A DNA stretch of 64,000 nt from Nostoc sp. FACHB-152 (GTDB lineage: Bacteria > Cyanobacteriota > Cyanobacteriia > Cyanobacteriales > Nostocaceae), in NCBI RefSeq assembly GCF_014697475.1, contig NZ_JACJRV010000003.1, positions 186,001 to 250,000 on the forward strand, read 5' to 3'. Numbering within the stretch: position 1 is the first letter of the stretch; each line of letters begins with the position of its first letter. The position numbers and the translations under genes are program-made. Of this stretch, positions 5,684 to 63,644 are shown in pieces. The notes under the pieces are model-generated. The model saw only the letters and a program-made list of their open reading frames with translations. It did not search any database and was not told the origin of the DNA.

Positions 5684-5728
5684 AAAAGTCAAAAGAAAAA
5701 TCAATTTCGCTTTTAACTTTTGACTTTT
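5684..5728. terminator. 12 bp inverted repeat between grpE and dnaK
   Basis: AAAAGTCAAAAG (5684-5695) and CTTTTGACTTTT (5717-5728) pair perfectly around a 21 nt loop, and a GATTTTT run follows. This could be a terminator or attenuator after grpE, or simply a repeat of the GTCAAAA family. Confidence 0.4.
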
Positions 5729-5855
5729 GATTTTTAAATTCTGGAAAAAAGGAGTAAGGGTGTCAGGGTTTTTACTTACACCCTTATACTAGATTTATTG
5801 CTCAAAATATCCCGTATAAACAACATCAAAAGCATTCAGTACAAATACTGTAAGT

Positions 5856-7817
5856 ATGGGAAAAGTTATTGGCATCGACTTAGGCACTACTAACAGTTGC
5901 GTCGCAGTCTTAGAGGGCGGTCAACCGATTGTCATTTCTAATTCTGAGGGCGGACGAACCACTCCTAGTATTGTGGGATTTGGCAAGGGTGGCGATCGCT
6001 TGGTCGGTCAGCTGGCAAAACGCCAAGCCGTAACTAATGCCGAAAATACAGTCTACAGTATTAAGAGATTCATCGGTCGTCGTTGGGAAGATACACCAGA
6101 AGAACGCGATCGCGTCCCCTACAGCTGTGTCAAAGGTCGAGATGACACTGTTGATGTTCATATTCGCGGCAAAAACTACACGCCTCAAGAAATCTCCGCC
6201 ATGATCCTGCAAAAATTAAAGCAGGACGCAGAAAATTTCTTGGGTGAAACTGTCACCCAGGCAGTAATTACCGTACCAGCATATTTTACCGATGCTCAAA
6301 GGCAAGCAACCAAAGATGCTGGCACAATTGCCGGACTAGAAGTATTACGAATTATTAATGAACCGACTGCTGCTGCTTTAGCTTTTGGGTTAGATAAGCA
6401 AGACCAAGAGCAAATAATTTTGGTGTTTGACTTAGGCGGCGGAACTTTTGACGTATCTATTCTGCAACTAGGTGATGGAGTTTTTGAAGTCAAAGCCACT
6501 AGTGGAAATAATCAACTCGGTGGTGACGACTTTGATGACTGCATTGTACGCTGGATGATTAAACGCTTCCAAGAACAAGAAAAAATTAACCTCGTTCAAG
6601 ATAAGATGGCTTTGCAGCGTCTGCGAGAAGCGGCGGAAAAAGCCAAAATTGAACTCTCTATTATGGCAAGTACTTCGATCAACTTGCCTTTTATTACAGC
6701 TGATGAATCTGGGCCGAAGCATCTAGAAATGGAACTGAGCCGCTCTAAATTTGAGGAACTGGTTGCACATTTAATTGAAGCTACCATTGAGCCGATGATT
6801 CAATCCCTGAAAGATGCTGACCTTAAACCACAAAATATAGACCGGATTATTTTAGTTGGTGGTTCTACACGCATTCCTGCTGTTCAAAATGCTCTAATTA
6901 AGTTTTTTAATGGCAAGACTCCAGATCGTTCTATTAACCCTGATGAAGCTGTAGCTTTAGGAGCGGCAATTCAAGCAGGAGTTCTAGGTGGCGAAGTAGA
7001 TAATCTCTTGTTATTAGATGTTACTCCCTTATCTTTAGGTATTGAAACTTTAGGCGAAGTATTTACTAAAATTATTGAACGTAATACCACAATTCCTACT
7101 AGTAAATCTCAAGTTTTTTCTACTGCCATAGATGGGCAAACCTCGGTGGAAATTCACGTCCTCCAAGGAGAACGGGTAATGGCGCGGGATAACAAAAGTC
7201 TGGGTAAGTTTCTGTTAGCTGGAATTCCCCCAGCCCCTCGTGGTGTGCCGCAAATCGAAGTATCTTTTGAAATTGATGTCAACGGTATTCTTAAAGTTTC
7301 GGCTCAAGATAAAGGTACAGGTAGAGAACAAAGTATTAGGATTACTAATACTGGTGGCTTGAGCAACAACGAAGTCGAACGGATGCGGCAAGAAGCTGAG
7401 ATATTTGCTGAGGAAGACAAAAAGCGCAAGGAATTTGTTGAACTTAAAAACCAAGCAGACAATTTGTTAACCAGTTATGAATCCACTCTGAAAGATAATG
7501 CCAACTTCATTGGCGAGCAAATGAAAGCTTTAGCCAACGAAAAACTTGTACAACTACAAGCAGTCATGACTAACCCCGGCATTTCCTTGCAAGAATTTCA
7601 AAATTGCTTAGATGACTTCCAGCAAACTTTGTTCGCTATTGGTGCTGATGTTTACAATCGCGCTAATGGACAAGTTCTCAATGAAGTTGAAGGAGTTTCT
7701 GATGAGCGGTTGACATCAGCATCAGAACATCCCGCCAGTGGAACACTAATCCCACAATTCAATTTTGATTTTGATGAGGAAATGACAGCACAAGCTGATT
7801 ACGAGGCGATAGACTAA
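5856..7817 (+). CDS. dnaK: molecular chaperone DnaK (Hsp70)
   Basis: ATP-dependent Hsp70 foldase, 653 residues. The start is typical ([20 protein letters not shown]), with phosphate loop [12 protein letters not shown] near residue 192, adenosine motif [10 protein letters not shown] near 338, and a substrate-binding domain with [16 protein letters not shown]. The C-terminal tail is acidic and ends DYEAID, without the EEVD-like ending of the canonical type. The gene sits between grpE and dnaJ, as does the housekeeping DnaK2-type gene of cyanobacteria; since these genomes carry several dnaK paralogues, the paralogue assignment is tentative. The 200 bp upstream spacer suggests a promoter of its own. 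Confidence 0.96.
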
Positions 7818-8258
7818 AAATAAAGTATGAAGTCTGAAATTGGAACCTTCAACACTTTGTCCTTTATCTTCAATGGTGCCTGACTACAGATGCAATGTAA
7901 TACAACTGGGGGGTTTTCCACACCTAATGGTGCGGGTAGCCCCTCTAGTTCATAAGTAGGGTTTTGCCGTATTGCGTAGCACAATTGTAAGAGAGGCAGC
8001 CAGATCGACAGTCGTAAGTCTTAGCATTTGCTAACTGTGCTGTTAAAATTCATGAGTTATTGTCATCTCCTAAGCAAAAGCAAATTTTGCTTCGTACTTG
8101 CTGGTGATTTTTGTAAAAGGTAAAAGGTACAATCAGTTATTAATAAAAATTAATCTATGCCTTCTGCCTTAAGAGTGCTAAGTGCTAATTCAAAATAACT
8201 AGTATTTGGCACCTACTCCCTAGTCTGTTTCCTACCTTCTAACTTTTACCTTTACTAT
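7818..8258. other. dnaK-dnaJ spacer
   Basis: About 440 bp with no convincing ORF. It holds short heptamer-like direct repeats (GTAAAAG near 8115) and a half-site GAGTGCTAA at 8174-8182 followed by a direct GTGCTAA. That resembles half of a CIRCE operator, but no TTAGCACTC partner lies upstream. A promoter for dnaJ is likely but not resolvable. Confidence 0.4.
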
Positions 8259-9389
8259 ATGGCCCGCGACTATTACGAAATTCTGGGTGTCGCTCGTGAC
8301 GCCGACAAAGAAGAAATCAAACAAGCTTACCGCCGTTTAGCCCGGAAGTATCACCCAGATGTGAACAAAGAATCCGGTGCAGAGGAACGCTTTAAAGAGA
8401 TAAACCGCGCTTATGAGGTACTCTCAGAGCCAGAAACCCGTGCGCGTTACGATCGCTTTGGGCCAGAAGGTGTTTCCGGTGCTGGTGTTGGCTTCCAAGA
8501 TATGAGCGACATGGGTGGTTTTGCCGATATCTTTGAAAGTATTTTCAGTGGCTTTGCTGGCGGCGGTGTAGGCGGACAGACAGCGCAAAGACGACGCAGT
8601 GGGCCGGTGCGGGGTGATGATTTACGGCTAGACCTGAAGTTAGACTTTCGAGAAGCGGTCTTTGGTGGCGAAAAAGAAATTCGCATTTCCCACCTAGAAA
8701 CTTGTGAAGCTTGTAGTGGTTCTGGTGCAAAACCTGGAACTCGGCCGCGCACCTGTTCAACTTGTAGCGGTTCTGGTCAAGTACGCCGTGTGACTAGAAC
8801 TCCTTTTGGGAGTTTTACGCAAGTTTCCACCTGCCCCACTTGTAACGGTACAGGTTCGGTAGTTGAAGATAAATGTGATTCTTGTGACGGTAAGGGAAGT
8901 AATCAAGTTACTAAAAAACTCAAAATTACTATTCCGGCTGGGGTAGATAACGGTACACGCTTGCGGATATCACAAGAAGGTGATGCAGGACAACGCGGTG
9001 GCCCCCCTGGAGATTTGTATGTTTACTTATTTGTGAATGAGGATGAAGAATTCCAGAGAGATGGAATTAACGTTCTTTCGGAAATCAAAGTGAGCTACTT
9101 ACAAGCAATTTTAGGTTGCCGCTTAGAGGTAGACACTGTAGATGGGCCAGTGGAATTAATTATTCCCGCAGGAACCCAGCCTAATACAGTGATGAAGCTC
9201 GAAAATCGCGGTGTGCCTCGCTTGGGTAATCCTGTGAGTCGGGGAGATCATCTACTAACAGTGTTAATTGATATTCCGACTAAGGTGACTCCCGATGAGA
9301 GAGAATTGCTAGAGAAGCTAGCTAAAATTAAAGGGGATCGTACTGGTAAAGGCGGTCTGGAAGGATTTTTAGGAAATCTGTTTAAGTAA
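8259..9389 (+). CDS. dnaJ: chaperone protein DnaJ (type I Hsp40)
   Basis: J-domain cochaperone that stimulates DnaK ATPase activity. The 376 residues show the whole type I layout: J domain with the HPD motif (YHPDVN, residues 31-36), a Gly/Phe-rich linker (about 68-105), four CxxCxGxG zinc repeats between about 147 and 215 ([32 protein letters not shown]), then two beta-sandwich substrate domains. Its stop codon shares one base with the ATG of the TusA-like gene (TAATG), implying translational coupling. Confidence 0.96.
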
Positions 9390-9643
9390 TGGTATCTTCT
9401 GTATCTACTCCTGATGCTCAACTGGATTTGCGCGGCACTCCTTGCCCAATGAACTTTGTGCGGACAAAACTCCGCTTGGAGAAAATGCCGCCAGGAGGTT
9501 TGCTGGAAGTATGGCTTGACCCTGGTGAACCAATTGAGCAGGTTCCTGATAGCTTGACTATGGCAGGCTATCAGGTAGAACAAATTACAGACTGCACTGA
9601 CTATTTTTCTTTGTTAGTTCGCCGTCCTTTGGCTGTCCAATGA
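9389..9643 (+). CDS. TusA/SirA-like sulfurtransferase family protein
   Basis: Small 84-residue protein of the TusA (SirA/YeeD) fold. It has LDLRGTPCPMNFVRTKLRLE with the family cysteine in a CPMN context (canonically CPxP) near residue 19, and the conserved C-terminal strand pattern (QITDCTDYFSLLVRR). TusA proteins carry persulfide sulfur for tRNA thiolation or molybdopterin; whether this one does so is inferred. It overlaps dnaJ by 1 bp and the next gene, rsgA, by 4 bp (ATGA), so the three genes form a tightly coupled translational unit. Confidence 0.85.
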   Translation: MVSSVSTPDAQLDLRGTPCPMNFVRTKLRLEKMPPGGLLEVWLDPGEPIEQVPDSLTMAGYQVEQITDCTDYFSLLVRRPLAVQ

Positions 9644-10761
9644 CAGGGGAAACAGTAACGACTACTGGAGAGTTAGTTGGTACAGTCTTAGCTGTACAAG
9701 CAAATTTTTATCGTGTCCAAATTGATGTGACAGAAAACGAGGAGGGAGAAGGAACAGATAAAAATCCGTTGTCTCTCTCGTTGTCATCCCATCTCCCTGT
9801 CTTGCTTTGCACCCGCAGAACACGGTTAAAAAAAATTGGGAAGCAAGTGATGGTGGGCGATCGCGTCGTGGTAGAAGAAGCAGATTGGGCTGGTGGACGA
9901 GGGGCAATTTCAGAAGTTTTACCCCGCACTGGACAATTAGATCGCCCGGCAATCGCCAATGTCAACCAGATTATGCTGGTATTTGCTGTTGCTGACCCCC
10001 CATTGGAACCTTACCAATTGAGCCGATTTTTAGTCAAAGCTGAATCTACTGGCTGGGATGTGGTACTTTGCTTGAATAAAAGTGATTTAATTACGGCACA
10101 GGAAAAACAGCAAATTAGCGATCGCCTCCTGGGTTGGGGGTATCAACCGTTATTTATCAGTGTTCAAAATAATATTAATATTGACCAAATATTAAGCTAT
10201 CTCAGCCATAAAACGACGGTGATTGCTGGGCCTTCTGGTGTGGGTAAATCTAGCTTAATTAACGCCCTTATACCTGATATTAACCTGCGCGTTGGGGAAA
10301 TATCTGGTAAACTTGCTCGCGGTCGCCATACGACACGCCATGTGGAATTATTTGAATTGCCTGGGGGCGGTTTTCTGGCTGATACCCCTGGTTTCAATCA
10401 GCCAGACTTAGATAATCAACCAGAAGAATTAGTTTATTATTTCCCAGAAGCGAGAAAGCAATTAGCAGTTGCTAACTGTCGGTTTAGTGATTGTTTGCAC
10501 CGAGACGAACCTAATTGTGCCGTGCAAAGTGACTGGGAACGTTATGAACATTATTTAGAATTTTTGGATGAAGCGATCGCCCGACAAACCCAATTAAATC
10601 AACAAGCTGATCCAGAATCAACCTTGAAGTTAAAAACCAAAGGTAAAGGGCAGAGTAAATACGAACCCAAACTAGAAAGTAAGAAATATCGCCGGATTTC
10701 TCGTAAGACACAACTACAAGCTTTGCAGGATTTGTATCAAGAGGATGAGGAAGAGAATTGA
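9640..10761 (+). CDS. rsgA: small ribosomal subunit biogenesis GTPase RsgA (YjeQ)
   Basis: Circularly permuted GTPase that acts late in 30S subunit maturation. The motif order is diagnostic: G4 (LNKSDLI, about residue 144) comes before G1 (GPSGVGKSSLI, about 196) and G3 (DTPGF, about 247). An N-terminal OB fold (GTVLAVQANFYRVQI) precedes them. The C-terminal zinc finger reads CRFSDCLHRDEPNCAV. The last 60 residues are basic and extended, likely rRNA-contacting. Residues 30-45 hold an acidic insert (ENEEGEGTDKN) within the OB region. The start codon lies within the stop of the TusA-like gene. Confidence 0.93.
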   Translation: MTGETVTTTGELVGTVLAVQANFYRVQIDVTENEEGEGTDKNPLSLSLSSHLPVLLCTRRTRLKKIGKQVMVGDRVVVEEADWAGGRGAISEVLPRTGQLDRPAIANVNQIMLVFAVADPPLEPYQLSRFLVKAESTGWDVVLCLNKSDLITAQEKQQISDRLLGWGYQPLFISVQNNINIDQILSYLSHKTTVIAGPSGVGKSSLINALIPDINLRVGEISGKLARGRHTTRHVELFELPGGGFLADTPGFNQPDLDNQPEELVYYFPEARKQLAVANCRFSDCLHRDEPNCAVQSDWERYEHYLEFLDEAIARQTQLNQQADPESTLKLKTKGKGQSKYEPKLESKKYRRISRKTQLQALQDLYQEDEEEN

Positions 10762-10900
10762 TTAGGGGTTAGGGGCTAGAGGCTAGGGTTAGAGGTTCAG
10801 CTAAGTACTTAATTACCCAGCCCCTCTTAACATTAGTCCCTATTCCTCTGCCTCTAGTCTCTCTTAAAACTAGCCCCTAACCTCTAGTCTCTCTTCAGAA
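10762..10900. repeat. STRR-like heptamer cluster
   Basis: Imperfect 7 bp units of the kind GGTTAGG/GGCTAGA/GGCTAGG begin just after rsgA. Related inverted units (TAGTCTCTC, CCTAACCTCTAG) follow to about 10885. This is typical cyanobacterial spacer repeat and nothing else is visible. Confidence 0.5.
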
Positions 10901-10997
10901 AAGTAGGAAAAATTACAATTTTAGCCTTTCATCTTACCACATTGTCTCCTAGACTAGGGGCAGCAACCTTATTCAAACTGGCAGAGGAAAGTGGAAA

Positions 10998-12398
10998 TTG
11001 ACTGAGGCGAACAACTTAAACTCTACCCTCCAAGATTTGTCCCGCAGAGAATTACGAGATTTAGTGCGGACTCAACTGCAAATGCTGTTAGAAGCAGGAG
11101 ACTTACAAGCAGCAAAGGCAATTCTCATACCTGTGCAGCCTGCGGACATTGCCGAAGCAATTGAAGGTTTGCCAGAGGCGATGCACGCTTTGGCGTTTCG
11201 TTTGCTTTCTAAAGATGAGGCGATAGAGGTTTATGAATATCTCGACTATAGTGTTCAAGAACGGCTGATTGAAGAACTTAAAAGTCAGGAAGTCCGGGAT
11301 ATTGTCGATCAGATGTCTTCGGACGATCGCGCTAGACTATTTGATGAATTGCCGGCAAAAGTTGTCAATCGTTTATTAGAACAACTCAGTCCTACAGAAC
11401 GCCAAGCTACAGCCCTGTTGTTGGGTTATGAACCTAACACTGCTGGGCGAATCATGACACTAGAGTTTATTTCTTTAAAAGAGAATATTACAGTTTCGCA
11501 GGCTCTAGAAAGAATTCGCCGTTTAGCTAATGCTAGTGAAATAATTTACTACCTTTACGTGACTGATAACGAAAGGCGGTTGACAGGGATTGCATCTTTA
11601 CGTGATTTGGTAACATCTCAGCCTGAGCAAATCATTGGTGATATCATGACCCGTGATGTTGTATTTGTACGTACAGATACAGACCAAGAAGAAGTTGCCA
11701 GGATAATTAAAAGATATGACTTTTTGGCTGTGCCTGTAGTTGACAAACAACAACTTTTAGTAGGTATTGTTACTGTTGATGATGTCATTGATATTTTAGA
11801 AGAAGAAACCACCAAAGATATTTACGCTTTAGGCGGTGGTGTGCAATCTAGTGGTGACAACTATTTCCAGATGAATTTACTGGAGGTAGCCCGTAAACGC
11901 GTGCTGTGGTTATTTGTTTTATTAATAACTAATACTGTTACAGGCACAATTATTAAGTCGCAAGAAGATATCTTGACAAAAGTAGTCACACTAACCGCGT
12001 TTATTCCTTTATTGACAGGAACCGGTGGTAACGTTGGCGCGCAGTCTTCTACAGTTGTGATTCGTGGGATGAATACTGAAGAAATCCGATCGCTTGGGGC
12101 ATGGCAGGTAATAGGCCGAGAAGCGATCGCTGGTATGCTATTAGGAGGAATGTTAGGAATAGTTGCTACTGTTTGGGCTTACTTTTTGCAAGGACGAATA
12201 GAAGTAGCGATCGCTGTTGGTACTAGTCTGGTAGCTATTTCGATGTTAGCTTCTATTTCTGGTTCATCACTACCGTTTTTATTTCGTCTGTTGCGTTTAG
12301 ATCCGGCTTTGATGTCAGCACCATTTATTACTACAGCAGTTGACGTTTTAGGCGTTTTAATTTATTTCAATTTGGCACGAATAATTTTAAAATTATAG
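10998..12398 (+). CDS. mgtE: magnesium transporter MgtE
   Basis: Mg2+ channel/transporter of the MgtE family, 466 residues. Domain order: an N-terminal superhelical domain (about 20-140, e.g. LSPTERQATALLLGYEPNTAG), two CBS domains (about 150-275; IMTLEFISLKENITV, DIMTRDVVFVRTDT) and a membrane domain of five helices (about 300-466). The membrane domain has the pore signature PLLTGTGGNVGAQSS near 345. The start is TTG at 10998, chosen because AGAGGAAAG lies at an ideal distance upstream and no ATG lies nearby in frame. The CBS/N domains usually gate the channel by cytosolic Mg2+. Confidence 0.94.
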   Translation: MTEANNLNSTLQDLSRRELRDLVRTQLQMLLEAGDLQAAKAILIPVQPADIAEAIEGLPEAMHALAFRLLSKDEAIEVYEYLDYSVQERLIEELKSQEVRDIVDQMSSDDRARLFDELPAKVVNRLLEQLSPTERQATALLLGYEPNTAGRIMTLEFISLKENITVSQALERIRRLANASEIIYYLYVTDNERRLTGIASLRDLVTSQPEQIIGDIMTRDVVFVRTDTDQEEVARIIKRYDFLAVPVVDKQQLLVGIVTVDDVIDILEEETTKDIYALGGGVQSSGDNYFQMNLLEVARKRVLWLFVLLITNTVTGTIIKSQEDILTKVVTLTAFIPLLTGTGGNVGAQSSTVVIRGMNTEEIRSLGAWQVIGREAIAGMLLGGMLGIVATVWAYFLQGRIEVAIAVGTSLVAISMLASISGSSLPFLFRLLRLDPALMSAPFITTAVDVLGVLIYFNLARIILKL

Positions 12399-12424
12399 GT
12401 CAATAGTCTTTTGACTACTGACCT
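12397..12424. terminator. inverted repeat after mgtE
   Basis: AGGTCAATAGTC (12397-12408) and GACTACTGACCT (12413-12424) form a 12 bp stem with one mismatch and a TTTT loop between the convergent ends of mgtE and the next gene. There is no clear T-run, so a bidirectional terminator is only a possibility. The units are STRR heptamers. Confidence 0.4.
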
Positions 12425-12448
12425 TAGAAACTAATGAATATTAAGTTT

Positions 12449-12706
12449 TTACAATTCTGACGCTGTATCTGGAGCAACAATTTCGCCAGTCCCTATTTGT
12501 AACATCATGTCTTGGTCAGTTATTAATTCACTTAGTTCTTTAACTTGTAAGTTCATTTCTGTACAAGCTTGTCTGAGTTCTCTGGCAAAAGTGTTGAGAT
12601 CATCACCATAGCCACATTGATAAGCAGCAGTTTCAATTCCTTGCTTGGCATTTGCTCTGGCACAATCTACTAATTCTGTGCCATGCAATGGTTTTGAAGA
12701 TGGCAT
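12449..12706 (-). CDS. small hypothetical protein, 85 residues
   Basis: I do not recognise this family. The 85-residue soluble protein starts MPSSKPLHGTELVDCAR and has two cysteines near the N-terminus and one near residue 47. It has amphipathic helices (LNTFARELRQACTEMNLQ; VKELSELITDQ) and no signal peptide or membrane segment. The composition and helical pattern look like a real protein, and the frame is flanked by non-coding sequence on both sides. It converges with mgtE. Confidence 0.65.
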   Translation of the reverse strand: MPSSKPLHGTELVDCARANAKQGIETAAYQCGYGDDLNTFARELRQACTEMNLQVKELSELITDQDMMLQIGTGEIVAPDTASEL

Positions 12707-12865
12707 AATTCTAATTGTTATGGATTAAATGTTACTAATTACTATAAATAAGCGATTTTTGTTGATTGGCACATCCCTCTATTGGAGGACTAAATAAATG
12801 AGCAACTTCAGAATTCAGAATTAGTTAAAACTAATTCTGAATTCTATATTGGGGATAATTCTGAA

Positions 12866-13729
12866 TTAACCGTTGACGACTTCTCCACCGTTGGGATGAA
12901 TGACTTGACCAGATATATAAGAAGCATCGTCAGAAGCTAAAAATACATAACTAGGTGCAACTTCTTCCGTTTGTCCTGGTCTTTGCATCGGTACTTGTTT
13001 GCCAAAAGTTTCTACTTTTTCTTCAGGGAACGTTGAGGGAATCAAAGGTGTCCAAATTGGCCCAGGTGCTACAGCATTTACTCTAATCCCTTTCTCCACC
13101 AAACTTTGAGATAAAGAACGAGTAAAGGCAACGATCGCACCTTTTGTTGAAGAGTAATCTAATAATTGTGGATTGCCTTTATAAGCAGTGACTGATGTAG
13201 TGTTAATGATGGCACTGCCTTGTTGCAAATGTTTCAGTGCTGCTTTGGTCAGATAAAACATTGAGAAAATATTAGTTTGGAAAGTTCTCTCTAGCTGTTC
13301 CTTTGTAATGTCTTCAATGCTTTTTTGCGGGTGTTGTTCAGCAGCATTATTTACTAAAATATCGAGTTTACCAAACTCACCTACTGCTTGTTGTATAGCG
13401 TGCTGACAAAAATTTTCATCGGTAATGTCACCAGCTATAGCTAATACACGCCGTCCGTGTTTTTCTACCAAACTTTTGGTTTCTTTGGCATCTTCATGCT
13501 CATTCAGGTAGACAATGGCTACATCTGCACCTTCTTTAGCAAAAGCGATCGCTACAGCACGACCAATACCACTATCGCCACCCGTGATTAACGCAACTTT
13601 ATCTTGTAATTTGCCGCTACCACGATAGTTTTCATCCTCAGCCTTGGGCTTTGGAGTCATTGCGGCTTCACTACCTGGTGGTTTTTGCTGCTGTGGTGGT
13701 TGTAATTTCTCTTCTTGTGATGTTGGCAT
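12866..13729 (-). CDS. SDR family oxidoreductase, general-stress type
   Basis: Short-chain dehydrogenase/reductase of the extended-N-terminus group related to Bacillus general stress protein 39 (YdaD). In 287 residues it shows the dinucleotide site TGGDSGIGRA near residue 50, NNAAEQ (NNAG-like) near 128, catalytic Ser in NTTSV and YSSTK (Tyr-x3-Lys) near 192, and PGPIWTPLIP. The N-terminal 40 residues are Pro/Gln-rich and probably disordered. The substrate cannot be told from sequence. It appears monocistronic, with a 16 bp imperfect inverted repeat just upstream (13772-13817). Confidence 0.9.
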   Translation of the reverse strand: MPTSQEEKLQPPQQQKPPGSEAAMTPKPKAEDENYRGSGKLQDKVALITGGDSGIGRAVAIAFAKEGADVAIVYLNEHEDAKETKSLVEKHGRRVLAIAGDITDENFCQHAIQQAVGEFGKLDILVNNAAEQHPQKSIEDITKEQLERTFQTNIFSMFYLTKAALKHLQQGSAIINTTSVTAYKGNPQLLDYSSTKGAIVAFTRSLSQSLVEKGIRVNAVAPGPIWTPLIPSTFPEEKVETFGKQVPMQRPGQTEEVAPSYVFLASDDASYISGQVIHPNGGEVVNG

Positions 13730-61102: not shown

Positions 61103-61552
61103 ATGAAAATAGATAGTTTCAACAAAGTTCTCATAAAAACAACACCTAAAGGTCAAGGCGTATTTGCTAATTATAATTTTACAGAAGGGGAAACTGTAAT
61201 AATTGGAAAGAGAGTAAAAGTAGTACCAGATAGAACTGTTTATTCACTCCAGATGGGCTTTGACTTACATATAGACATTGATGAACCGGGAAGATTAATT
61301 AATCACTCTTGCTCTCCGAATACTGGCGTTCGCAATAATGAATTTGGAGGATATGATTTTGTTGCTATTAGTAATATTGCACTATTAGAAGAAATTACAT
61401 TTGATTACGAAACAACAGAATGTATTGTAAGTGCGTTTTCTAAATGTTTATGCGGTTCTGTAAACTGTAGAGTTATAATTTGTGGGTTTAATTTTAATTC
61501 TGAAGAATTAAAATTAAAATCTAATAAATTTATTGCAGATTATTTAAAGTAA
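61103..61552 (+). CDS. SET-domain protein (putative lysine methyltransferase)
   Basis: 149-residue compact SET protein. Hallmarks are complete: GQGVFANYNFTEGETV near residues 18-33, RLINHSCSPNTGVRNN near 70-85 (NHSC.PN), EEITFDYET near 97-105 (the Tyr-bearing FDY box), and a post-SET-like CLCGSVNCR near 115-123 (CxCx4C). These bind S-adenosylmethionine and the target lysine. SET proteins are mostly eukaryotic; bacterial ones are scattered and often acquired laterally. AT-rich codon use fits a recent arrival. The target is unknown; it may act on a host or ribosomal protein. Confidence 0.85.
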   Translation: MKIDSFNKVLIKTTPKGQGVFANYNFTEGETVIIGKRVKVVPDRTVYSLQMGFDLHIDIDEPGRLINHSCSPNTGVRNNEFGGYDFVAISNIALLEEITFDYETTECIVSAFSKCLCGSVNCRVIICGFNFNSEELKLKSNKFIADYLK

Positions 61553-61655
61553 GACTTTGGAAGTTATCTATGTCATCTCTTAAAACTATTTAGACATTTC
61601 TGCTGCATAACTTTACCTCATAACTAACTTTATACTTTTATTCCGATGGTACGAA

Positions 61656-62081
61656 ATGTTTCAAGTAGATGAATGGCTTATCTATACACTAATCTCTTCA
61701 GTTTTATATGGCGTGTGGGGATTTTGTAGCAAAATGGCGGCTAACTACATTACCCCCAAAAGTGCTTTAGGTTACGAAGCAATTGGCTTTTCAGCATTAG
61801 CTTTATTTGTCATGACAGGAGAAAAATTGACTTTGAATTCAGATATAAGGGGAGTTATCTATGCAACCTTAGTTGGAGTTACTGGTGCTGTAGCATCACT
61901 GTTTTTATTTATTGCACTCAGCAAAGGTAATGTTTCTATTATTATCCCCATAACAGCTTTGTATCCCATTATCACTATTATAATGGCTTATTTTATCCTT
62001 AAAGAGCCTATTACTTTTCGACAGAGCATTGGTTTGATGTTGGCTTTAGCCGCTGTAGTACTATGTGCAGATGTTAAGTAG
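61656..62081 (+). CDS. small EamA/DMT-type membrane protein
   Basis: 141 residues with about five hydrophobic segments, a single EamA repeat (half of a normal ten-helix DMT carrier). Family signature YPIITIIMAYFILKEPITFR near residues 108-127 and the start WLIYTLISSVLYGVWGFCSK. Half-size EamA proteins may work as homodimers, like the SMR family, or may bind metabolites. It lies 103 bp after the SET gene on the same strand and could share its transcript. The substrate is unknown. Confidence 0.82.
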   Translation: MFQVDEWLIYTLISSVLYGVWGFCSKMAANYITPKSALGYEAIGFSALALFVMTGEKLTLNSDIRGVIYATLVGVTGAVASLFLFIALSKGNVSIIIPITALYPIITIIMAYFILKEPITFRQSIGLMLALAAVVLCADVK

Positions 62082-62102
62082 ACATTATGTTGTATTGCCA
62101 AA

Positions 62103-62316
62103 TGTCGGTTAACAAATTGTTTGTCACTTTAACAGATTAATGTCGTCCTATCAGAAACTGCTAAAGTCAAGACGGCTCAAGGAGTCGTAATTTTTTGGGC
62201 ATTCCTCACAAGGCACGGATTAGCGCTCACATCAACAACTGAAAACCTTGCATTGTAAGGTTTTCTCTTCCGATAACATCAATATGTTAAAGCGACAAAC
62301 AATCTGTTAACCGACA
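62103..62316. mobile_element. mini-element with Tn7/CRISPR-associated-transposon-like ends
   Basis: The two ends are inverted copies. Left reads TGTCGGTTAACAAATTGTTT, then GTCACTTTAACAGATTAATG; the right end on the minus strand reads TGTCGGTTAACAGATTGTTT, then GTCGCTTTAACATATTGATG. About 37 of the first 40 bases match. Each end carries two spaced units of the form TAACARATTNNTGTC, like TnsB sites in type V-K CRISPR-associated transposons of cyanobacteria; just outside the right end is TGTACAGT (minus strand, 62317-62324), the terminal sequence I recall from those elements. The interior, about 130 bp, codes nothing; it has an AAAACCTT/AAGGTTTT hairpin (62242-62263). No 5 bp target duplication is evident. 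Probably a deletion derivative mobilised in trans. Confidence 0.55.
62242..62263 (+). terminator. hairpin inside the mini-element
   Basis: AAAACCTT and AAGGTTTT (about 62242-62249 and 62256-62263) pair around a short loop and are followed by CTCTTCC. It may be the relic of a terminator at the end of a lost gene of the element. Confidence 0.4.
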
Positions 62317-62499
62317 ACTGTACATACAAGCATCCTTTTTGCTTGATACTAGTTGCGAGTATATTAGCAGATAAATTTGGTTAATAGAGCTATTCTTTCT
62401 GCACGACGCTGGTATGGTAACAAAAAGTTTCTTAAAGGTATAATCTGCTAATTCAATCCTCAGTATAAGAGTTATTTCTAAAGTAAAAATAAAATTACT

Positions 62500-62614
62500 G
62501 TAGGGTGTGTTAGGTACTAATTTCGATATGATTTCTCACGAAAAAGATAACTTAAGTGCCTAACGCACCGCTAAATAACAAGGTGCGTTAGGCTAACGCC
62601 TTAACACACCCTAC
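62500..62614. mobile_element. 115 bp palindromic MITE-like element
   Basis: GTAGGGTGTGTTA (62500-62512) and TAACACACCCTAC (62602-62614) are perfect 13 bp terminal inverted repeats. Inside, CCTAACGCACC (62559-62569) and GGTGCGTTAGG (62582-62592) form a second perfect 11 bp inverted repeat. The interior between the two stems is AT-rich and non-coding. The size and symmetry are typical of cyanobacterial MITEs. Confidence 0.7.
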
Positions 62615-62819
62615 TTAAGATTTACTTTATGAATAGTCTCTAAATGTAAGACTTATTTGTCACTTACTTAGGATTGCTGTATAGCAGCCAAAGTATAGGT
62701 TAGGACAACAATTAATTATCAAACATGGAAATTAAGAGGCTTTCAAACCTGTTTCCTGTTCCCTGCTATCAGATATTAACAAGCGAAGTAGAATAATAAC
62801 TATTTTCCAGCGTTAGAAG

Positions 62820-63644
62820 TTACCAAGCCTGGGGGCTTTCGTTGGAGATTGCTTTAAGTTTTGAGGTCAATGGCTCGGTGCGATCGCTTTTTTCGGGAGT
62901 AAACCGCCCAATTGGTGGATGATTGACTGTAGATGTCAGTAGTTTTGTTTGTTTGTCAAGGTTTGATGGCAGATTGTTGGGCAGCGTCGGTTGTGAATTA
63001 GCTTTGGATTTCAGACTTGAGGCCGCAACACTCAATGTGGAAGATGCCAAAATGTTTCTGACTCGCTCATTATCTGCTGTGTCGGATGCTATCTCGGTTT
63101 GTCTGTTGATAACTTGCACGGCAGAATTTTTTCTCTGCTCATATCCAGCATCAACACTAGCTAAAGAATCTGCTGTTGTTGCCAAATTGGCAACATTCGC
63201 TACATTTTCTGAGCTACTATTCTCATTGGCAGGTGGCAAGGCTGGTGTAGCCAATGCCGTTAATATTTCTGGGAACTTGCTACAAATCAGGCGTTCAAAT
63301 TCCATATTGAAATGATAAATCGGCTGCTCTCGCCGTTGCCAAAATGCGAGGATTTGCTGTACAGAAAATGCTTTATAGCGACCTTGATACAGTGCCTCAA
63401 TTACTGCCAAATGCAGCCAATCTAAAGGATATTGATTTTGCCAACGGTTAACTAACTCAATGACAGTGTAGCCACTGAGGTCAAAACTGTAATGTAGGAG
63501 TAAGGCAGCTGCCAATTCGGCAGAAGTTTCTGGCGCGTTGGTAAACATGGGACTATTGGCTTGCGGCAATAGGTGTAAGTTTTCGACCCATCGCCTATAG
63601 CCTAGCGTGTTTTTAGCTATAGGGTTAGTAACCAAGGTTTCCAA
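62820..63644 (-). CDS. cyanobacterial hypothetical protein, 274 residues
   Basis: I do not recognise a function. The N-terminal 130 residues are well-structured and helical (LNRW-like segment YTVIELVNRWQNQYPLDWLH near 59-78; RYKAFSVQQILAFWQRREQP near 87-106; HFNMEFERLICSKFPEIL near 109-126), resembling a DnaD-like or winged-helix fold. The second half is Ser/Asn/Ala-rich and probably disordered. It has no signal peptide or membrane segment. It is separated from the SLH gene by about 30 bp on the same strand, so the two may be co-transcribed. Confidence 0.7.
   Translation of the reverse strand: METLVTNPIAKNTLGYRRWVENLHLLPQANSPMFTNAPETSAELAAALLLHYSFDLSGYTVIELVNRWQNQYPLDWLHLAVIEALYQGRYKAFSVQQILAFWQRREQPIYHFNMEFERLICSKFPEILTALATPALPPANENSSSENVANVANLATTADSLASVDAGYEQRKNSAVQVINRQTEIASDTADNERVRNILASSTLSVAASSLKSKANSQPTLPNNLPSNLDKQTKLLTSTVNHPPIGRFTPEKSDRTEPLTSKLKAISNESPQAW

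Follow-up and report, generated by a model that had tools for sequence, protein, structure and literature searches.

A gene-free 214-bp element with type V-K CAST-like ends, a probable MITE-like transposon of Nostoc sp. FACHB-152 and its relatives

The window analysed here, a stretch of 64,000 nucleotides from Nostoc sp. FACHB-152, carries a 214-bp element (62103-62316, no strand assigned; contig C114 of the host genome, G000) that probably represents a MITE-like, non-autonomous transposon without cargo, descended from a type V-K CAST of the sort with TGTCG tips and TTAACA sites. The description as a MITE-like derivative fits since the element has V-K CAST-like ends, holds no genes and is found as copies at unrelated loci. 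No cas12k, tnsB, tnsC or tniQ lies inside it, and thus it would be a derivative and not a CAST. An earlier sequence-only reading had proposed a gene-free, MITE-like derivative with ends like those of V-K CASTs. Both proposals were supported, the first by the absence of any ORF of at least 60 aa from the 214-bp element and by the copies at unrelated loci, and the second by the site sequence, spacing and tip as seen with CAST-end profiles.

The element is bounded by the tips TGTCGGTTAAC and GTTAACCGACA, and these borders are common to the copies in other genomes. The left end (62103-62146, plus strand) begins with the tip TGTCGGT and holds two TnsB-type sites, TAACAAATTGTTTGTC (62110-62125, plus strand; typed by comparison with CAST ends) and TAACAGATTAATGTC (62130-62144, plus strand), with a spacer of 4 nt. 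The right end (62275-62316, minus strand) is inverted and has the same TGTCGGT tip, two TnsB-type sites (62294-62309 and 62275-62289, minus strand) and a 4-nt spacer. Immediately inward of it lies the hairpin GAAAACCTTACAATGCAAGGTTTTC (62241-62265, minus strand). The interior (62147-62240, no strand assigned), likewise without an ORF of at least 60 aa, includes a terminator-like hairpin (62172-62188, plus strand). A possible short reading frame was also seen in the interior by eye. Read inward from 62103 and 62316, the two ends were identical at 38 of 44 bases, against a best 44-base inverted match of 31 in 60 shuffles of the 401 bases from 62000 to 62400. These measurements agree with the earlier description of two inverted ends, then given as 37 of 40 identical bases, around approximately 130 bp of non-coding DNA, and the two spaced units of the TnsB-site type that had been noted in each end were confirmed as TAACARATT-N-TGTC-type units.

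The ends were compared with a profile made from 28 type V-K CAST ends, all cas12k- or tnsB-linked, without any of the short gene-free elements of this kind (minis). The source was 40 cas12k loci, for which genomes with minis were preferred; 20 of them were used, together with host L154 and L075, the end matches of L194, L201, L215 and L226 and host L074 were not used, and the remaining 16 loci yielded no end by the methods used. In the window, the profile matched 62103-62145 on the plus strand (38.4 bits, E = 6e-11) and 62316-62276 on the minus strand (24.6 bits, E = 1e-6), both matches beginning at profile position 1. The third match in the window reached 4.1 bits; the highest score among 20 shuffled windows was 13.1 bits. 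When the CAST end L227 was searched against the host genome, the first match began at 62103 (E = 5e-7). Since a mini-derived profile had served to locate many of the CAST ends (and most had been located by that profile or by a tip pattern, with a bias toward mini-like ends), control profiles were built. The nine ends that the mini-derived profile had not picked gave 27.2 bits (E = 2e-7) at 62103 and 15.4 bits (E = 0.001) at 62316, with a best shuffle of 13.7 bits; this control keeps both places, though the choice of profile is less independent than first thought. A profile of 14 TGTC-tip ends scored 33.5 and 19.7 bits at 62103 and 62316. With 14 TGTACA-tip ends the scores were 30.9 and 23.0 bits, the left match starting at 62110 and the right one running, with a gap, to 62323, where the sequence-only reading had set its tip. 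By these profiles the ends have the TnsB-type sites and tip of V-K CAST ends, but the matches of the TGTACA-tip profile do not fall at 62103 and 62316. Among Cas12k-linked ends, TGTCG tips combined with TTAACA sites were present at L197, L205, L208, L209, L220 and L227.

The V-K CAST-end profile anchors at both tips, the genome search with a CAST end matches from 62103, and the homologous copies end at TGTCGG...CCGACA, that is, at 62103-62316. These comparisons make 62103 and 62316 the best positions for the tips. The tips suggested earlier, 62091 and 62324, would lie 12 bases beyond the left border and 8 beyond the right one, and the TGT at 62091 and the TGTACAGT at 62317-62324 lie outside the sequence common to the other copies. 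Thus the copy borders and the 28-end profile speak against the earlier tips, and the TGTACA-tip profile, in reaching 62323, speaks for the right one. The TGTACAGT directly outside the right border (minus strand) is the tip sequence of other V-K CASTs. Since it is absent there from the other full copies, we take it as flank, which may be due to chance or be the trace of an older insertion or neighbour.

Since the sides of CASTs are named differently between papers (the tRNA side is the left end in an excerpt of PMC9938897), the ends are named here by their genes. The first two sites were 4 nt apart in seven of eight tnsB-side CAST ends (the eighth, L075, which the script did not parse, has a spacing of 5 by eye) and 5 nt apart in all 20 CRISPR/tRNA-side ends. 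The window element has the 4-nt spacing at both of its ends, as tnsB-side CAST ends do. In the 214-bp family, the left ends had 4 nt in nine of nine cases and the right ends in five of nine, the other four being unparsed. G015, G145, G039 and G179 contain other minis, 220-408 bp long, whose ends are of this kind and whose interiors differ; their spacings were 4 and 4 in G145, G039a, G039b and G179, and 5 and 4 in G015. The hairpin at 62241-62265, folded with its context, had a free energy of -12 kcal/mol, which 2 of 200 shuffles equalled. At that place, hairpins were also present in the tnsB-side CAST ends L212, L217, L195 and L207 (0, 0, 0 and 1 of 200 shuffles equally good), and none above shuffles was present in L224, L210, L218 and L075 (53, 86, 127 and 35 of 200). 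With only four of eight ends carrying it, the hairpin does not appear to characterise tnsB-side ends in general. In the mini hairpin, covariation did not exceed that of shuffled controls, 55 of 500 of which reached the observed level. The right-end hairpin perhaps stops transcription from outside.

The element was searched for in 217 family genomes. At least 26 of them had a match at E <= 1e-8, and at least 12 had near-full copies with different flanks, at 11 loci. At least 204 of 215 positions were covered in ten genomes (G000, G003, G226, G222, G013, G111, G042, G216, G199 and G185), nearly full copies were also present in G007 and G110, and the genomes with full copies span five genera. The copies have the same borders and related interiors, and the interior and hairpin are recognisable in all five genera. 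When flanks of 1.5 kb were compared, both sides were common only to G110 and G111, and therefore 11 loci were counted. Weaker, one-sided similarity was seen between the left flank of G013 and that of G110/G111, inverted, and between 68 bp of G042 and G222. Hence, as is expected of a MITE, the same element stands at unrelated loci, 11 in number. Conserved copies at orthologous loci, which the sequence-only reading had named as a sign of a regulatory role, were not observed, the flanks being unrelated except in the pair G110/G111. One copy is on a plasmid of Nostoc sp. HK-01, and all three matching plasmid records belong to Nostoc; no phage record matched the element. The window copy and the HK-01 plasmid copy share 95% identity, as against 81% between the two genomes for the gene on the right side of the element. 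All 13 host candidates were scored, and besides a single full copy the host carries a decayed fragment at C108:5621. The search for further mini-copies in this genome, which had been proposed earlier, thus gave that fragment and no second full copy. Among the matches listed, each genome has one full copy.

At the window locus, no empty site was readable, since DNA related to the left flank is present in only 2 other of 208 genomes, at 65-66% identity. The neighbouring genes encode a 149-aa protein with a SET domain (61103-61552; Pfam PF00856, E = 7.5e-10) and a 141-aa EamA-type half transporter (61656-62081; PF00892), and for the latter, related DNA occurs in just 2 other genomes among 208 of the family. 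A second short repeat, of the GTAGGGTGTGTTAGG...AACACACCCTAC type, lies at 62466-62643; related copies of it are found in the host (C103, C134, C4 and C116) and in many relatives.

Cas12k was detected at E <= 1e-20 in 130 of the 217 family genomes; the full-copy genomes G226 and G216 are outside these 130. The search for cas12k and tns genes elsewhere in the host, which had been proposed earlier, revealed two Cas12k loci, G000:C180 (L154) and G000:C186 (L074). The C180 locus, a CAST located at tRNA-Pro, has a CRISPR array whose anchor spacer matches the tRNA by eye. Its end sites are TTTGCAAATTAATGTC, with sites of the TTTGCAAATT sort. Contig C74 probably carries the tnsB of this CAST; on it are sites similar to those of C180 and genes with Mu-transposase and TniB domains. 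The C186 locus comprises cas12k, a TniQ gene and genes called tnsC and tnsB by order and similarity; its end sites are TTAAAGAATTNTTGTCC, and TTAAAGAATT sites adjoin tRNA-Ala. The TTAACA sites of the mini match the end sites of neither locus. Therefore, of the earlier suggestion of a CAST in this genome, the presence of V-K CAST genes in the host held, and a resident CAST as the partner of the element was not supported, since both host Cas12k loci have end sites of other sequence.

When the host genome was searched with a CAST end of the matching type (E < 0.01), only the window element and the C108 fragment matched, so that no partner with matching ends was found in the assembly. Such a partner may have been lost, may be missing from the assembly or may never have been in this host. 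Since neither host locus has TTAACA sites, the most likely partner would be a V-K CAST with TGTCG tips in another or a former host. Among the candidates listed across the 217 genomes, none was a parent CAST whose ends match closely. The loci L077 and L078 were considered as parents and rejected, being half-copies with no transposase gene by eye or by tblastn with host genes. Several other observations were made on these loci. Beside the cas12k of C180 lie genes that are restriction-modification-like by eye. Further TniQ-bearing modules are present in the host at G000:C112, C169 and C157 (L071-L073); in the C112 transposase, TnsA-like and Mu-transposase domains are joined in one 911-aa protein, and the TniQ of C157 has an internal stop codon. 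At L096, a 7.9-kb element (5686-13583) with V-K-type ends stands beside tRNA-Pro; its genes are restriction-modification-like by eye, and no cas12k or tns genes were found in it.

The parent may instead have been a Tn5053-like TnsB/TnsC/TniQ transposon without cas12k, with ends of the same sort. No cas12k-bearing element with closely matching ends is among the candidates listed, and similar ends bound the 7.9-kb L096 and the 799-bp L092, in which no cas12k was found. However, the ends behind the tip-finding profile were cas12k- or tnsB-linked, and L096 and L092, which adjoin tRNA-Pro genes in the manner of V-K CASTs, could be decayed ones. We therefore consider a parent of this kind unlikely.

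The junctions were then inspected for a target site duplication (TSD). None of the 14 minis counted, a set without G222, G007 and G110, whose ends are incomplete, and without two partial G039 elements, had flanks identical over 3 to 9 bases at the tips, and the 5-bp TSD of a V-K CAST was accordingly seen in 0 of 14. Flank matches over 5 bases numbered 22 of 70, compared with 22.6 expected from shuffled pairs. Among seven larger elements with both tips read, two had a 5-bp TSD, L210 (AAAAT) and L212 (TCTGT), or two of the five with cas12k; L195, L217, L224 and the cas12k-less L092 and L096 had none. Since L212 has TGTC tips, a duplication beside such a tip is on record. The lack of TSDs could mean that the insertions are old, and five of the seven larger elements likewise have none.

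At two loci the flanks were broken. The left flank of the G185 mini is the start of a multi-copy gene, which breaks off at the tip; of the ten homologues listed, all but L119 continue with similar sequence, seven of them directly and two, L123 and L132, after a slight shift. On the right, the flank consists of a decayed stretch of a WD-repeat gene that ends at the other tip. By look the left-flank gene was taken for a transposase, but it had no Pfam match and was left unnamed. When G111 was compared with its relative G013, which has no element there, the right flank began at the tip and approximately 1.1 kb on the left differed; a gain in G013 is the alternative account. G199 was dropped as a further rearranged locus, with no clear break, since its right-flank repeat begins at or near the same base elsewhere. 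At L250 (G213:C44), a short palindrome-like TGTCGGTTAACCGATA stands beside a relative of the left flank of the G199 mini, and it is perhaps the remnant of a mini whose tips met. As to RNA-guided placement, 166 spacers from the retrieved loci were compared with 15 minis and their flanks, and the longest of the best 12 matches was 16 nt at 94%; arrays that match may have been lost or may lie outside the retrieved loci.

The absence of TSDs, the single full copy per genome among the matches listed and the half copies L077 and L078 are what would be expected if the minis were dead relics, that is, shrunken remains of CASTs that were inherited or plasmid-borne and never mobile as minis. Nevertheless, the same borders and related interiors recur at 11 loci with unrelated flanks, and independent shrinking would not yield the same interior, so that we hold dead relics to be improbable. 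A conserved regulatory or RNA element that is no transposon is very improbable, since, for all that the interior and hairpin are recognisable in five genera and two terminator-like hairpins are present, the flanks at the compared loci are unrelated, no conserved gene neighbours were seen, similar hairpins occur in some CAST ends, and Rfam gave nothing near the gathering score for 61500-63000, its one match being far below.

As a MITE-like transposon from a V-K CAST, the element would have been moved in trans. The TnsB and TnsC of a related CAST, in the present or a former host, would have bound both ends and then joined them to new DNA. According to excerpts of PMC9527255 and PMC11406308, V-K systems are without TnsA and form cointegrates. 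The move, made without TnsA, would thus be replicative, and moves within one replicon would result in deletions or inversions at a tip and not in a simple insertion with a 5-bp duplication. That the element has moved is inferred from its sequence and that of its copies. The scars fit replicative moves inside a single replicon, but a similar picture would be expected from old insertions whose scars have decayed. More tentatively, the minis may be a natural family of V-K CAST parasites with two tnsB-side ends, which borrow TnsB and TnsC without Cas12k targeting and, by TnsA-less replication, leave deletions and inversions and not clean insertions; we regard this fuller account as possible but doubtful. 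If true, such a family would be a natural record of the effects of V-K transposition on cyanobacterial chromosomes. Dispersed minis with exact borders, no duplications and broken flanks at two loci offer natural test junctions, and they suggest the existence of non-autonomous hitch-hikers of CASTs. A further question that they pose is whether V-K transposition can do with two tnsB-side ends, which would bear on the smallest DNA for CAST tools.

No description of a V-K CAST in mini or MITE form was found in the titles and abstract openings of the literature searched. The element resembles a type V-K CAST in its tip-anchored inverted ends, the paired TnsB-type sites, the 4-nt spacing of the tnsB side and the hairpin, which four of eight tnsB-side ends share. 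It differs in having no genes, no CRISPR array, scattered sites and no TSD found, and in combining two ends of the tnsB-side type in place of one CRISPR/tRNA-side and one tnsB-side end. Like bacterial MITEs, it is short and gene-free, has the inverted ends of a known transposon and occupies many loci; unlike them, it shows one full copy per genome among the matches listed and no TSD. Unlike a Tn5053-like transposon, it has no resolvase gene, there being no ORF of at least 60 aa in the 214 bp; its parent may nevertheless have had a resolvase. In Tn7, the right end is the tns-gene side. An excerpt of PMC11406308 reports that a Tn7 element with two right ends functions and that one with two left ends does not. 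The window element is like those Tn7 test elements with two right ends in having two ends of one kind, and differs from them in being natural and of the V-K instead of the Tn7 kind.
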